A stretch of 64,000 nt of DNA from Stenotrophomonas sp. NA06056 (GTDB lineage: Bacteria; Pseudomonadota; Gammaproteobacteria; Xanthomonadales; Xanthomonadaceae). Under the pieces are notes generated by a model, which saw only the letters and a program-made list of their open reading frames with translations, was not told the origin of the DNA and made no database searches. The stretch's first letter is position 1. Each line of letters starts with the position of its first letter. The stretch covers positions 2,666,001 through 2,730,000 of the forward strand of contig NZ_CP054931.1 of assembly GCF_013364355.1 (NCBI RefSeq). The letters are read 5' to 3'. Shown here one piece after another: positions 50,133-53,803 of this stretch. Position numbers and translations under genes: made by a program.

Positions 50133-50900
50133 ATGACCTCATTGTCCCCCGCCCTGCTGCGCCCCCTGCTGTGCACCGTCGCCCTCTCCACGCCGCTGCT
50201 GGCAACCGCGCAGGAGCAGGCCCCGGGCGTGCAGGCCGGTATCACCGTCGGTGCGACCACCGGCGCCTACGCGCACTATGACGACAAGCCGCTGGTACTG
50301 CCGGCGTTGTCCTGGCAGGGCAAGCGTTTCTTCGCCAGCCCCGGATCGCTGGGCATGAACCTCTACAAGGCCGATGGCCTGCGTCTGTCGGCGGTGGCGA
50401 CGCCCTACACGCTGCGCTTCAAAACCGACGACGTGAACGATCCGCAGCTGCGCCGCCTGCACAGCCGGCAGATGTCTGCGATGGTCGGCATCAATGCCGA
50501 CTACAACGCGGACTGGGGTGCACTGGCGGCCAGCGTAAAGCGCGAAGTGAGCGGTCACGGTGGTGGTGTTGAATCAAGCCTGCATTACAGCTACCCGATC
50601 CAGGCCGGTCGCTTCACCTGGGTGCCGCGCGTGGGCGTGGTGCATTCCAGCGCCCGCCTGCTCGACTACTACTACGGCATCAGCGATGAGGAAGCCCTGC
50701 GTTCAGGGCTGGCAGCCTACAAACCCGGCAGTGCCACTTCGCCGAGCCTGCAGATCGCAGTCAGCACACCGTTGGGTACGAAATGGCGCGCGACCGGGAT
50801 CGTCGCCAACCAGTGGTTCGGTGATGCCGTCGAGGACAGCCCGATGGCACGACGCAGCAGCCAGACATCCGCTTTCATCTCGCTGATGCGCACGTTCTGA
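50133..50900 (+). CDS. MipA/OmpV-family outer-membrane protein
   Basis: 255 residues. A signal peptide (about 1-26, LLATAQ-EQA) is followed by a beta-barrel with GITVGATTGAYAHYDDKPLV, alternating hydrophobic strands and a terminal Phe (ISLMRTF), the outer-membrane signature. MipA links murein enzymes in E. coli; OmpV-like members are often under two-component control, here the divergent pair at 47973-49989. Confidence 0.87.
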   Translation: MTSLSPALLRPLLCTVALSTPLLATAQEQAPGVQAGITVGATTGAYAHYDDKPLVLPALSWQGKRFFASPGSLGMNLYKADGLRLSAVATPYTLRFKTDDVNDPQLRRLHSRQMSAMVGINADYNADWGALAASVKREVSGHGGGVESSLHYSYPIQAGRFTWVPRVGVVHSSARLLDYYYGISDEEALRSGLAAYKPGSATSPSLQIAVSTPLGTKWRATGIVANQWFGDAVEDSPMARRSSQTSAFISLMRTF

Positions 50901-50939
50901 CCGAACCCGCATCCGCCCCACGGAAAACAAGGATTCCGC

Positions 50940-51227
50940 ATGGCCGCCGCCTCCCCTACCGCCGATGCCCACGCGATCCTGCGCGCGCCGGACCTGGACA
51001 GCGCCGAGCGCGCCTACCTGGGCCTGCTGCCGGACATGGACCATGTGGATGCGCTGACCCGACGTGCACTTGGGCTGTCGCGCGCTGCCGATGCGGCGCG
51101 CGGATATGCGCTGTCGATGACCCTGGTGGGACTGCGCCTGCAGGAACTTGAGATGGGCGAGGCGTGCGCGGCCGAACAGCGGCAGGCAACGCTGCGCAGC
51201 CTGCGGCAGGCCTTCACCGCTGCCTGA
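50940..51227 (+). CDS. hypothetical small helical protein
   Basis: 95 residues, soluble, Ala/Leu-rich helices (SAERAYLGLLPDMDHVDALT, YALSMTLVGLRLQELEMGEA). AAGGA lies six bases before the ATG. It is 39 bp after the MipA gene on the same strand. No family is recognised. Confidence 0.62.
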   Translation: MAAASPTADAHAILRAPDLDSAERAYLGLLPDMDHVDALTRRALGLSRAADAARGYALSMTLVGLRLQELEMGEACAAEQRQATLRSLRQAFTAA

Positions 51228-51235
51228 GCACTGCG

Positions 51236-51376
51236 TCAGCGGAAGGTTGTCCAGGCCAGGACCGCAGACAAAAGTGCGACCCACACCACCGCTTTGAAGG
51301 TGCCTTCCAGCATGTTGCCGCCGAACAGCAGATCGATGATCGGGTTCGGCCGTGAAACGGGAGCATGGTCACTCAT
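51236..51376 (-). CDS. 46-residue single-helix membrane peptide
   Basis: From MSDHAPVSRPNPIIDLLFGG, then a C-terminal hydrophobic helix (FKAVVWVALLSAVLAWTTF). AGGA is eight bases before the ATG at 51376. It is convergent with the 95-residue gene and divergent from the thioredoxin-like gene. No family is recognised; such short proteins are easily missed. Confidence 0.55.
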   Translation of the reverse strand: MSDHAPVSRPNPIIDLLFGGNMLEGTFKAVVWVALLSAVLAWTTFR

Positions 51377-51423
51377 GGTGGCGTCCTGTGGTTTGGGAAC
51401 TGCGTCACCGATGATACAAAAGC

Positions 51424-51454
51424 TTGACAATCCTGTTGTCATTTCCGGTATGGT
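51424..51454 (+). promoter_or_regulatory. promoter with overlapping inverted repeat, before the Cys-peptide operon
   Basis: TTGACA (51424-51429) and TATGGT (51449-51454) with 19 bp between. An inverted repeat TGACAA-N5-TTGTCA (51425-51441) covers the -35 box, so a repressor could sit on it. It is 30 bp upstream of the ATG at 51484, whose ribosome site is AAGGA. Confidence 0.5.
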
Positions 51455-51483
51455 CGATGCAACGCGGCGTTCAAGGATGATCG

Positions 51484-52053
51484 ATGCTCAAGCGTGCACT
51501 GTTTCCCGTAGTCGCCCTGCTGTTGGCCGCACTGGTCATCATGCTCTCCTGGCAGAACCGCCAGTTGCGACAGGTCAACGAACAGATGGCGGCCCAGCTG
51601 CAGCAGACCCAGCTGGATGCGCACGGTCTTGCAACCGGCACCCGACCTGAACTGTTGACGCTGCGGACGACGCAGCAGGCCCATGTCGATATCGGCGGCG
51701 CACGCGCCGTTCCGCAGATCCTCTACTTCTTCTCTACCGCATGCCGCTACTGCCTGGCCTCGGTGCCACAACTGCAGCAGATCGCGGCGGCGCGTGGCAG
51801 CGCCGAGCTGGTGGGCGTCGGCCTGCCACCGTATGACCAGCTTGCCGAGTACGCCGGCAAGCACGCGCTGGCGTTTCCGATCGCCATCGACGATCAGGGC
51901 GAAGTCTCCAAGCGCTACCGCGCCACGCTGACACCGATGCTGATGGTGCTCGCCGCAGATGGCAGCGTCGCCTACAAGCATGTCGGCCAGCTCGACACAG
52001 AGACGGTACAGGCCGTCGCCAAGGCAATGAATCCGGGAAGCCACACCAACTGA
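51484..52053 (+). CDS. membrane-anchored thioredoxin-like protein (CxxC)
   Basis: 189 residues. One N-terminal helix (FPVVALLLAALVIMLSW) anchors the protein, and a Gln-rich linker leads to a thioredoxin-like domain (about 70-185). The redox site is CRYC in YFFSTACRYCLASVP and the cis-Pro lies in ATLTPMLMVLAAD. The domain should face the periplasm, where it could form, isomerise or reduce disulfides. The first of three Cys-rich peptide genes begins 11 bp downstream, so those peptides are the likely clients (inference). Confidence 0.85.
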   Translation: MLKRALFPVVALLLAALVIMLSWQNRQLRQVNEQMAAQLQQTQLDAHGLATGTRPELLTLRTTQQAHVDIGGARAVPQILYFFSTACRYCLASVPQLQQIAAARGSAELVGVGLPPYDQLAEYAGKHALAFPIAIDDQGEVSKRYRATLTPMLMVLAADGSVAYKHVGQLDTETVQAVAKAMNPGSHTN

Positions 52054-52064
52054 AGGAGATACAC

Positions 52065-52259
52065 ATGATCGGGAAGAAAACGCTGTTCTCGTCCGTCGCC
52101 GGTATCGTCATCGTTGCTGCAATGTCATTCGGTGCAGCACAGGCCTTCGCCACCCCGGTGAAGACCGGCTTTGCACCGGGTTGCGTGGACACCCCCGGAT
52201 GCATGTTCGGCGGCAACGGCCGCGCCGGCGGCACGCGCATCTGCTGCGTCGCCAACTGA
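52065..52259 (+). CDS. small exported four-cysteine peptide, copy 1
   Basis: 64 residues. The leader MIGKKTLFSSVAGIVIVAAM continues to a probable signal cleavage after AFA (about residue 29). The mature part of about 35 residues has GFAPGC, five residues, C, then 13 residues and a final CC followed by VAN. AAGGAG precedes it. Copies 2 and 3 share the leader almost exactly. A RiPP-like, bacteriocin-like or signalling peptide, or a DUF6289-type protein, are all possible; no family can be asserted. Confidence 0.78.
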   Translation: MIGKKTLFSSVAGIVIVAAMSFGAAQAFATPVKTGFAPGCVDTPGCMFGGNGRAGGTRICCVAN

Positions 52260-52324
52260 TTCCGCTTCGACACCGCCCCGCATGCGGTGACTTCATGTTC
52301 CATCGCCACTGCAAGGAGATACAC

Positions 52325-52516
52325 ATGATCGGAAAGAAGAAACTGTTCTCGTCCATCGCCGGCATCGTCGTGGTCGCCGCCATGTCATTCGGTGCCGCGC
52401 AGGCCTTCGCTACTCCAGTGAAGACCGGCTTTGCGCCGGGCTGCAAGGAACATCCCAGCTGCCCCTACGGCAATGCCGGCTCCCACGGCCTGCTGGTCTG
52501 CTGCGATCCCATGTGA
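52325..52516 (+). CDS. small exported four-cysteine peptide, copy 2
   Basis: 63 residues. The leader MIGKKKLFSSIAGIVVVAAM differs from copy 3 only beyond residue 30. The mature part has GFAPGCKEHPSCPYG and ends LLVCCDPM: C, five residues, C, 12 residues, CC. It has its own AAGGAG, 65 bp after copy 1. Confidence 0.78.
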   Translation: MIGKKKLFSSIAGIVVVAAMSFGAAQAFATPVKTGFAPGCKEHPSCPYGNAGSHGLLVCCDPM

Positions 52517-52547
52517 TCCACCTCGACGCTCTGCAAAGGAGATTCAG

Positions 52548-52742
52548 ATGATCGGAAAGAAGAAGCTGTTCTCATCCATTGCCGGCATCGTGGTAGTTGC
52601 CGCCATGTCGTTCGGTGCCGCGCAGGCCTTCGCCACGCCGGCCAAGGCCGGGTTCGCCCCGGGCTGCGAATACACCCCGGGCTGCCCGTACGGCGGTTCA
52701 GGGCATTGGTCCGGCCCTCGCATCTGCTGCGATCCGCTCTGA
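52548..52742 (+). CDS. small exported four-cysteine peptide, copy 3
   Basis: 64 residues. The same leader as copy 2; the mature part has GFAPGCEYTPGCPYGG and ends PRICCDPL: C, five residues, C, 13 residues, CC. AAAGGAG precedes it, 31 bp after copy 2. A strong terminator follows, closing the operon. Confidence 0.78.
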   Translation: MIGKKKLFSSIAGIVVVAAMSFGAAQAFATPAKAGFAPGCEYTPGCPYGGSGHWSGPRICCDPL

Positions 52743-52818
52743 GCCCGACTGAAAGTTCCAGCCAAGTCGTGACCTGAGCCCAGGCTTCCCGGCCAACGCG
52801 GTCACTTCCGGGCAAACG

Positions 52819-52853
52819 GGCCGGACTACCTTCACCGGTAGTCCGGCCTTTTT
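52819..52853 (+). terminator. strong terminator of the Cys-peptide operon
   Basis: GGCCGGACTACC (52819-52830) pairs perfectly with GGTAGTCCGGCC (52837-52848) around TTCACC, followed by T5. Confidence 0.92.
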
Positions 52854-53004
52854 CATGGCCGTGCTCTGCAGCCACCACTGATCCGCCCCGGATTCATCCT
52901 TGCTGGCTCCCGTTGGCACGCGCTTTTCCAGCCTTCGTCGCATACCGGTTTCACGCCGCAGGCCACGGTGCAACGCTGGACTCCCTTCTCCGGAGCACCG
53001 TGCC

Positions 53005-53337
53005 ATGCCGATGCTTGCCTTGCTGCTGTTGATGGCCGGCCTATGCAACCGCGACGCCGGCACCGGACACGATTCGCTGCGATTGCAGATCCGGCAGGCC
53101 GAGGCCCAACGCGTCGCCCGCGAGCCCGGTGCACATGGGCAGACGGGCCACCAGAGCGTGCAGATTCTGCGCCTGAGCGCGGATCGCGTGCTGCAGGTGG
53201 CCTATGGTCGCGTGCACGGTGGAGCACCAGGGGAGCAGCATGGGCAAGCGCACAGCCGAAGCCTCATGCAACTGTGGCAGCGCGTGGATGGCCACTGGCA
53301 GCTGCAGCGTAGCGCCAGTGTCGAACAACGCGGTTGA
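53005..53337 (+). CDS. hypothetical exported protein
   Basis: 110 residues from MPMLALLLLMAGLC, with CCGGAG upstream of the ATG at 53005. A short hydrophobic N-terminus suggests export; it is not a clean lipobox. The rest (LRLQIRQAEAQRVA, then SVQILRLSADRVLQVAYGRV and LMQLWQRVDGHWQLQR) has an NTF2-like rhythm but no firm family. It ends 44 bp before a tRNA-Val terminator. Confidence 0.5.
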   Translation: MPMLALLLLMAGLCNRDAGTGHDSLRLQIRQAEAQRVAREPGAHGQTGHQSVQILRLSADRVLQVAYGRVHGGAPGEQHGQAHSRSLMQLWQRVDGHWQLQRSASVEQRG

Positions 53338-53383
53338 CGGCGGCAGCCACAGGCCCAACTGAAACGCGCGCAGACCGCAGGCA

Positions 53384-53412
53384 CAAAAAAACCGGCCCAG
53401 GGCCGGCTTTCA
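53384..53412 (-). terminator. terminator after tRNA-Val copy 1
   Basis: CCGGCC and GGCCGG (53392-53406) with a CAG loop; the minus strand continues into a T7 run. Confidence 0.85.
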
Positions 53413-53449
53413 TCGTGTCCACCGTTATTCCGGCAATGCCGGGAACCGG

Positions 53450-53524
53450 TGGTGGGCGGTACAGGGTTCGAACCTGTGACCCCTACCATGTCAAGGTAGT
53501 GCTCTACCGCTGAGCTAACCGCCC
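53450..53524 (-). tRNA. tRNA-Val (anticodon GAC), copy 1
   Basis: 75 nt with CCA; acceptor GGGCGGT, anticodon loop TTGACAT. Confidence 0.96.
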
Positions 53525-53561
53525 AAAAATTCCGTGCAGCCCGCAGGCTGGTGCTTTTACG

Positions 53562-53590
53562 TAAAAACCCGGCGCCAAGGCCGGGCTTTT
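53562..53590 (-). terminator. terminator after tRNA-Val copy 2
   Basis: CCCGGC (53568-53573) and GCCGGG (53580-53585) pair; A5 on the plus strand gives the minus-strand T-run. Confidence 0.75.
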
Positions 53591-53621
53591 CATCCCCACG
53601 AAAGCCCTCTGGAGGACTTCG

Positions 53622-53696
53622 TGGTGGGCGGTACAGGGTTCGAACCTGTGACCCCTACCATGTCAAGGTAGTGCTCTACCGCTGAGCTAACCGCCC
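53622..53696 (-). tRNA. tRNA-Val (anticodon GAC), copy 2
   Basis: 75 nt, identical to copy 1, with encoded CCA. Confidence 0.96.
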
Positions 53697-53803
53697 GTTT
53701 GTTGCGTCTGCAGCGCCGCGATTGCGTCGGTGCAGGCCGCGTATATTACGGACGCCGACCGACAAGCGCAATACTTTTGTGAAGAAAAGCCGCTTTACCG
53801 TGT

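Follow-up and report, generated by a model that had tools for sequence, protein, structure and literature searches.

A thioredoxin-like gene inherited together with small, putatively exported cysteine-rich peptides in Xanthomonadaceae: a candidate oxidative-folding pair

Why does a gene for a thioredoxin-like protein stand at the head of three tandem genes for small, cysteine-rich peptides with signal-like leaders? The locus that raises this question lies in a 64,000-nucleotide stretch of Stenotrophomonas sp. NA06056 (contig NZ_CP054931.1, positions 2,666,001 to 2,730,000), here called the window, and was singled out in a preliminary description made from the letters alone. The four genes, with the CRYC enzyme first, are all found on the + strand where that description placed them, and the strong terminator said to close the unit lies just past the end of the last gene at 52742. 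We propose, with a probability of roughly 0.6, that enzyme and peptides form a dedicated oxidative-folding pair, in which a periplasmic thioredoxin (trx) acts on its own Sec-exported disulfide peptides. The features on which the argument turns are, in window coordinates:

51484..52053, + strand: trx, a TlpA/ResA-like thioredoxin of 189 aa with a CRYC active site and a predicted N-terminal membrane helix (Pfam, AlphaFold2, Foldseek)
52065..52259, + strand: peptide A precursor, 64 aa, mature part with four Cys (open reading frame, ORF)
52325..52516, + strand: peptide B precursor, 63 aa, mature part with four Cys (ORF)
52548..52742, + strand: peptide C precursor, 64 aa, mature part with four Cys (ORF)
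52818..52849, + strand: intrinsic terminator, a 13-pair stem followed by a T run (terminator scan)
51378..52883, limits approximate, no strand assigned: presence/absence cassette made up of promoter region, trx, three peptide genes and terminator (empty-site comparison)

Peptide A starts 11 bases past the end of trx, and each of the three peptide genes is preceded by what reads as an AAGGAGA-like ribosome site. The GFAPGC-x5-C-x12/13-CC pattern reported earlier is present in all three peptides. A combined signal-motif and cysteine-tail pattern, devised after the family had been seen, occurs three times in the window, each time in a cassette peptide. Searches with peptide B and with trx (E ≤ 1e-20) matched the identical 25 of 91 Stenotrophomonas genomes; enzyme and peptides adjoin in every one of these carriers, which hold one to three peptide copies each. 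Since the pattern is confined to the cassette within the window and the unit recurs in these genomes of the genus, the four-gene arrangement is not chance.

Nineteen of the 25 carriers have the cassette at the window's site, and the other six have it elsewhere, with a trx about 42% identical; in the two off-site loci that were inspected it lies between other genes. Searching 12 cassette-free genomes with the upstream gene recovered the locus in seven, and in all seven the flanks are joined without trx or peptides. On the upstream side the match stops at 51376-51377 in six of these loci and at 51229 in the seventh (L242), where a small ORF adjoining the cassette is also missing; on the downstream side it resumes between 52884 (four loci) and 52992. 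These empty sites show that the cassette comes and goes. Carriage of the cassette by a plasmid or phage was considered and dropped, as no plasmid record matched trx (E ≤ 1e-15) and no phage record matched peptide B (E ≤ 1e-5).

The pairing extends across the family. Enzyme and peptide profiles were searched against the same 395 genomes, with the best 8 candidates per genome scored for trx and the best 15 for peptides, which makes absences soft. Counting matches of at least 96 bits yielded 96 enzymes in 88 genomes; a further 29 rows, scoring 58-65 bits, were left out as general TlpA-like proteins. A profile-detected peptide lies within 1.5 kb downstream of 64 of them, and reading the DNA of the remaining 32 loci revealed a downstream cysteine peptide of the family in 28, giving 92 of 96 in total; the count across genomes that the preliminary description had called for thus finds the redox gene tightly linked, in genus and family alike. 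Nine genera are represented (g1, g5, g8, g9, g10, g16, g18, g28 and g104), with g16 included through one atypical pair, L176; g5, g18 and g10 probably correspond to Xanthomonas, Lysobacter and Luteimonas, and g104 has one genome deposited as Lysobacter sp. When 15 loci were compared (ORFs of at least 90 aa, best six rows per pair), trx was the only longer gene common between genera outside same-site relatives, bar ATP-binding cassette (ABC)-type genes upstream in two. An order-level search with a four-Cys profile matched 15 of 398 genomes, at least three of the loci (L069, L070, L073) having no cysteine peptide of the family.

Two cysteine classes can be distinguished. The window type has four Cys, and many enzyme-linked peptides outside Stenotrophomonas have six, typically as C1-x4-C2-x3-C3...C4-x-C5-C6; the 78 distinct mature sequences divide into 42 with four and 36 with six, and odd numbers do not occur. 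All members of a 25-sequence alignment (A4) keep C1, C3 and the C-terminal CC, and C2 and C4 are jointly missing from the four-Cys class; because the two are absent together, a C2-C4 disulfide is predicted for the six-Cys class, the likeliest companions being C3-C5 and C1-C6. L137 is the exception: it lacks C4 and carries two additional Cys, the first ahead of C1 and the second between C1 and C3. On a tree of 82 distinct enzymes labelled by peptide class (six, four or none), the label changes four times, against a mean of 28.6 for shuffled labels and with 0 of 200 shuffles as low, a contrast inflated by near-copies among the enzymes. Enzyme type and peptide class are inherited together.

The enzyme itself matches the Pfam families Redoxin (1.9e-9) and AhpC-TSA (1.9e-8). 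Its AlphaFold2 model, computed on a 12-sequence alignment, has a predicted local distance difference test score (pLDDT) of 88.3 and shows a thioredoxin fold preceded by a long helix at the N-terminus (2-45), with StoA/ResA as best PDB matches (Foldseek probability 1.00). The CxxC, the C-x-AS-x-P that follows and a presumed cis-Pro, located from the alignment, are invariant in the 12 sequences, and trx therefore combines CxxC, cis-Pro and a Redoxin/AhpC-TSA profile, as expected of a TlpA/ResA-like thioredoxin fold. The membrane-tethered layout is likewise typical of the ResA/StoA/TlpA family. The cassette enzymes differ from that family in their CxxC dipeptide (RY, RF, KF, PY, PH and others) and in adjoining exported-peptide genes, and trx falls short of the curated NCBIfam cut-offs for StoA (41.2 of 210 bits), ResA (37.4 of 170) and DsbE (31.7 of 123.15). 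A Thr before the cis-Pro was considered as a sign of isomerase activity and dropped, since other members have Val or Ser there.

The peptide leader consists of MIGKKK, a hydrophobic core and FGAAQAFA, and looks like a signal peptide. Comparing A, B and C over leader codons 1-29, the proportion of synonymous differences (pS) is 0.37-0.55 and that of nonsynonymous differences (pN) 0-0.054, whereas the mature parts have pS 0.36-0.68 and pN 0.21-0.30; these values agree with the earlier suggestion that the leader is selected rather than merely copied. We read it as a signal peptide for Sec with AxA at its end, and not as a leader for an enzyme of the kind that modifies ribosomally synthesised and post-translationally modified peptides (RiPPs). 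Of the likeness to precursor families drawn in the preliminary description, the conserved leader, variable core and linked redox gene stand. Enzymatic modification of the RiPP kind is not supported: the cassette holds only trx and peptides, and in the 15 loci no modifying enzyme was seen and no other longer gene is generally common. DUF6289 (PF19806), which had been named as a possible family, gave no match at E ≤ 10 with the three window peptides and ten relatives; a genome search for it was empty, as were its controls, and the name is absent from the literature searched.

Within the mature parts, the only invariant residues of alignment A1 are the four Cys, one Pro and one Gly. Precursors of mixed type occur: one genome (L006) has an A-type leader joined to a B-type core, and in another (L014) a second peptide combines features of A and C. 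This suggests recombination inside the peptide array. Mean mature pN and pS are 0.039 and 0.33 in g8, where the pair is single-copy, 0.096 and 0.47 in Xanthomonas, 0.17 and 0.37 (six-Cys) or 0.094 and 0.32 (four-Cys) in Lysobacter, and 0.13-0.20 and 0.38-0.51 in three Stenotrophomonas groups. Because mean pN exceeds pS in none of the peptide groups compared, this crude measure gives no sign of an arms race in the cores, although Stenotrophomonas cores still differ more than their leaders. In public databases, four copies (P0013, P0015, P0032 and P0086, P0032 coming from a named S. maltophilia record) are apparently frameshifted past the leader, and intact and broken copies both look to be in circulation.

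Known families offer little by way of a name. Pfam and NCBIfam scans took in the three window peptides, 16 other family members and the metagenomic P0085, P0087 and P0088; no enzyme-linked peptide among them reached a cut-off, only P0088 passed one (Pfam), and some weak sub-threshold matches were returned. PADLOC reported nothing over cut-off for the three window peptides, P0033 and P0040, and a sequence-profile search of the PDB with the peptides returned no matches. Peptide relatives are named 'hypothetical protein' in their sources, apart from single cases of 'Transmembrane protein' and 'Secreted protein'. The pairing is uncatalogued: no title on it was found in a literature search that left subscription journals largely outside, and which is hence no proof of novelty.

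In the proposed pair, each peptide would be exported by Sec and its signal removed at AxA, leaving a mature peptide of ~34 residues with an even number of Cys in the periplasm. There the membrane-tethered thioredoxin, presumably facing the periplasm, would make, proofread or isomerise the peptide disulfides, two in the four-Cys window class and three in the six-Cys class found in Xanthomonas, Lysobacter and their relatives. The general Dsb system might also fold such peptides. Conservation of a private enzyme where Dsb might suffice suggests either that the peptide pattern, with its adjacent CC, is hard to fold or that the function involves the redox state.

A folding role for trx has precedents in PedC with pediocin and TmcD with TMcin. 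The pediocin leader is of the double-glycine type. PedC is a thioredoxin-fold CxxC protein encoded beside the four-Cys, two-disulfide pediocin PA-1, whose potency it raises, and the Gram-positive operon includes an ABC exporter and an immunity gene (PMC4919988). The likeness, which extends to BdbA of sublancin and BlpGst of thermophilin, lies in a small exported four-Cys peptide together with a CxxC enzyme gene. The cassette differs in being Gram-negative, in its probable Sec-type signal, in having no exporter or immunity gene and in its membrane-anchored TlpA/ResA-type enzyme. In a second system, also Gram-positive, the DsbA-like TmcD is the dedicated oxidoreductase of the TMcin cluster and makes a disulfide needed for activity (PMC13252029); the cluster departs from the cassette in its transmembrane peptide, intramembrane protease, ABC exporter, escort protein and DsbA-family enzyme. 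The linkage of an oxidoreductase gene to a cysteine-peptide gene that marks both systems is found here as well, with the disulfides predicted.

Several observations weigh against a dedicated folding pair. TlpA/ResA/CcmG proteins are usually reductases, and trx could for that reason reduce rather than oxidise; the active site also varies among the enzymes (CRYC, CRFC, CKFC, CPYC, CPHC, CPVC, CPIC, CPRC, CQFC, CAHC). The profile behind the family-wide enzyme count was built from 12 peptide-linked enzymes, and the pattern behind the even cysteine counts, applied to sequences from the loci collected, itself required a CC close to the end and no fewer than three Cys. A protein-database search matched 88 peptides: four or six Cys are present in 76, seven are truncated, frameshifted or without the motif, and the remaining five (P0025, P0010, P0013, P0079, P0039), of which P0013 looks frameshifted, carry 3, 5 or 7 Cys downstream of the signal motif. 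Four enzyme matches (L149, L155, L175, L177) have no downstream peptide; 36 of 110 peptide matches have no adjoining trx, some of them apparently leader-only; several Lysobacter loci carry tandem four-Cys peptides with no neighbouring trx; in Luteimonas G357 and G402 trx and peptides occupy separate places; and G628 and G643 have peptide matches but are absent from the trx matches listed, the best 8 candidates being scored. The link is not obligate, and because unlinked peptides and separated pairs exist, enzyme and peptides may work in trans or be shed. The preliminary description would have been undermined by homologues that were both unlinked to a redox gene and unconserved in their cysteines; unlinked homologues do exist, and those that were read keep their cysteines.

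The same data bear on other accounts of the locus. TlpA-type proteins keep cysteines reduced for copper-centre and haem assembly, and the peptides might be small periplasmic Cu/Zn binders or metallochaperones whose cysteines the thioredoxin keeps reduced. The TlpA/ResA fold of the enzyme, the strong purifying selection on g8 cores and the possible ligands offered by the fixed C-terminal CC and by CxxHPxC in peptide B and its orthologues agree with such a role, which we nevertheless regard as unlikely: the even cysteine counts, and C2 and C4 being absent as a pair, are more readily explained by disulfides than by a set of ligands, alignment A1 has no conserved His, and the few neighbours identified by Pfam are not metal genes, except perhaps one upstream ABC gene in g104, which we take to be Atm1-like. 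Alternatively, the peptide could serve the enzyme as its redox partner or regulate it, being a small thiol carrier for electrons and not a folding substrate. Vicinal C-terminal cysteines and the strong conservation of the single-copy g8 pair speak for this arrangement; the diverging cores of the Stenotrophomonas tandem copies and the short list of invariant mature residues speak against it, and we hold it to be quite improbable. Coincidence, an ordinary thioredoxin gene beside unrelated small exported proteins, draws on how common Redoxin-family genes are (the 29 weaker rows of the family search) and on other ORFs in these genomes that match the leader part alone. It is refuted as an account of the linkage by the 92 of 96 enzymes linked in 395 genomes, the same 25 carriers in the genus and the shared tree, and keeps only a negligible probability.

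A further account is compatible with the folding pair and concerns what the peptides are: defensin-like bacteriocins of the cysteine-stabilised alpha-beta (CS-alpha-beta) fold, with the four-Cys window peptides as a stripped derivative. The C2-x3-C3 and C4-x-C5 of the six-Cys class correspond to the helix/strand pairing of that fold, and the AlphaFold2 model of a six-Cys relative is a short helix (14-17) plus a hairpin (strands 25-27 and 33-35; pLDDT 72, predicted template modelling score 0.36), for which a fold search returned no significant match, the best being drosomycin (probability 0.04). P0085, P0087 and P0088 have a similar leader and six Cys in a defensin-like frame. P0088 (leader SFGAAQALA) exceeds the cut-off of the arthropod Pfam family Defensin_2 (22.2 against 20.4 bits, E 1.3e-4), and in the PDB it comes closest to a scorpion toxin and insect defensins, though weakly (E 0.006); it is metagenomic and not known to be linked to trx. 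Searches of 299 and 316 genomes for peptides of this type beside trx gave mostly known peptides and leader-only matches, the weak rows not having been read individually. CS-alpha-beta defensins have six or more Cys in a C...CxxxC...GxC...CxC frame; defensin models matched neither the four-Cys window peptides nor the six-Cys relatives scanned, and a profile comparison on the question gave 40%. Bacterial defensins, represented by actifensin and by the five classes of Cardoso et al. 2024, are likewise small, cysteine-rich and exported, and the six-Cys class here shares with them CxxxC and CxC; the window peptides differ in having neither the third cystine pair nor the GxC gamma-core. Actifensin clusters include ABC transporters and a protease (PMC6989792), and the main text of the five-class paper, in the portion available, has no mention of Xanthomonas, Stenotrophomonas, Lysobacter or thioredoxin (PMC11561630). 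We treat the defensin-like bacteriocin account as tentative, and a defensin-related ancestry of the cassette peptides as possible but weakly supported.

Returning to the folding pair, an antagonistic role, bacteriocin- or defensin-like, for the tandem and diversified Stenotrophomonas arrays is our favoured guess, held as less likely than not. The window cassette contains no immunity gene or exporter, and comparing the 15 loci likewise showed neither an immunity gene nor an exporter shared in general, though an immunity gene smaller than 90 aa could escape this comparison. A broader and more doubtful scenario would have the Xanthomonadaceae as a whole carry an undescribed class of cystine peptides exported by Sec, each passed on together with a folding thioredoxin of its own and all derived from a defensin-like six-Cys ancestor; the four-Cys Stenotrophomonas arrays would have lost the C2-C4 disulfide, after which duplication and exchange of cores would have diversified them into an antagonistic repertoire. 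If the enzyme folds the peptides, the cassette is a compact two-part unit in which oxidoreductase and substrate have evolved in step and can be studied together, and the substrate specificity of periplasmic thioredoxins becomes directly testable through partner swaps. If the peptides act on other organisms, they constitute a large uncatalogued family in Xanthomonas, Stenotrophomonas, Lysobacter and Luteimonas that could be informative about how defensin-like folds arose.

Upstream of trx there is one further candidate element:

51424..51454, + strand: promoter-like TTGACA-N19-TATGGT 5' of trx (spacing off consensus; no match here in a standard scan)

A counterpart, TT(A/G)ACA ... TATG(T/G)T, was seen by eye in 19 same-site Stenotrophomonas loci. 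Many Xanthomonas and g8 loci have TTGACC some 50-90 bases before the trx start, possibly a common -35 box. A TGACAA-N5-TTGTCA palindrome 5' of trx was rejected as an operator, since of the upstream stretches compared only the one from the window carries its full form. Terminator-like sites number 6 on both strands of 50800-53800, against 2.0 expected.

ABC-type exporter genes lie directly 5' of trx in one Luteimonas and two g104 genomes (L183 468-2483; L182 318-2222; L181 3563-5443); the two g104 genes are alike by eye, and the Luteimonas gene is about 35-38% identical over 326 residues. In Lysobacter, a gene for a small EF-hand protein lies 3' of the peptides with or without trx (L080 2012-2883; L077 5855-6202), and in L080 it adjoins tandem four-Cys peptides that have no trx. 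Two small conserved ORFs without Pfam match lie 5' of the window cassette, at 50940-51227 (+) and 51236-51442 (-); the former occurs in 7 of the 12 cassette-free genomes searched and the latter in six of those seven loci. On the 3' side, two tRNA-Val genes with the same anticodon occupy 53450-53696 and are kept in the seven empty-site loci.
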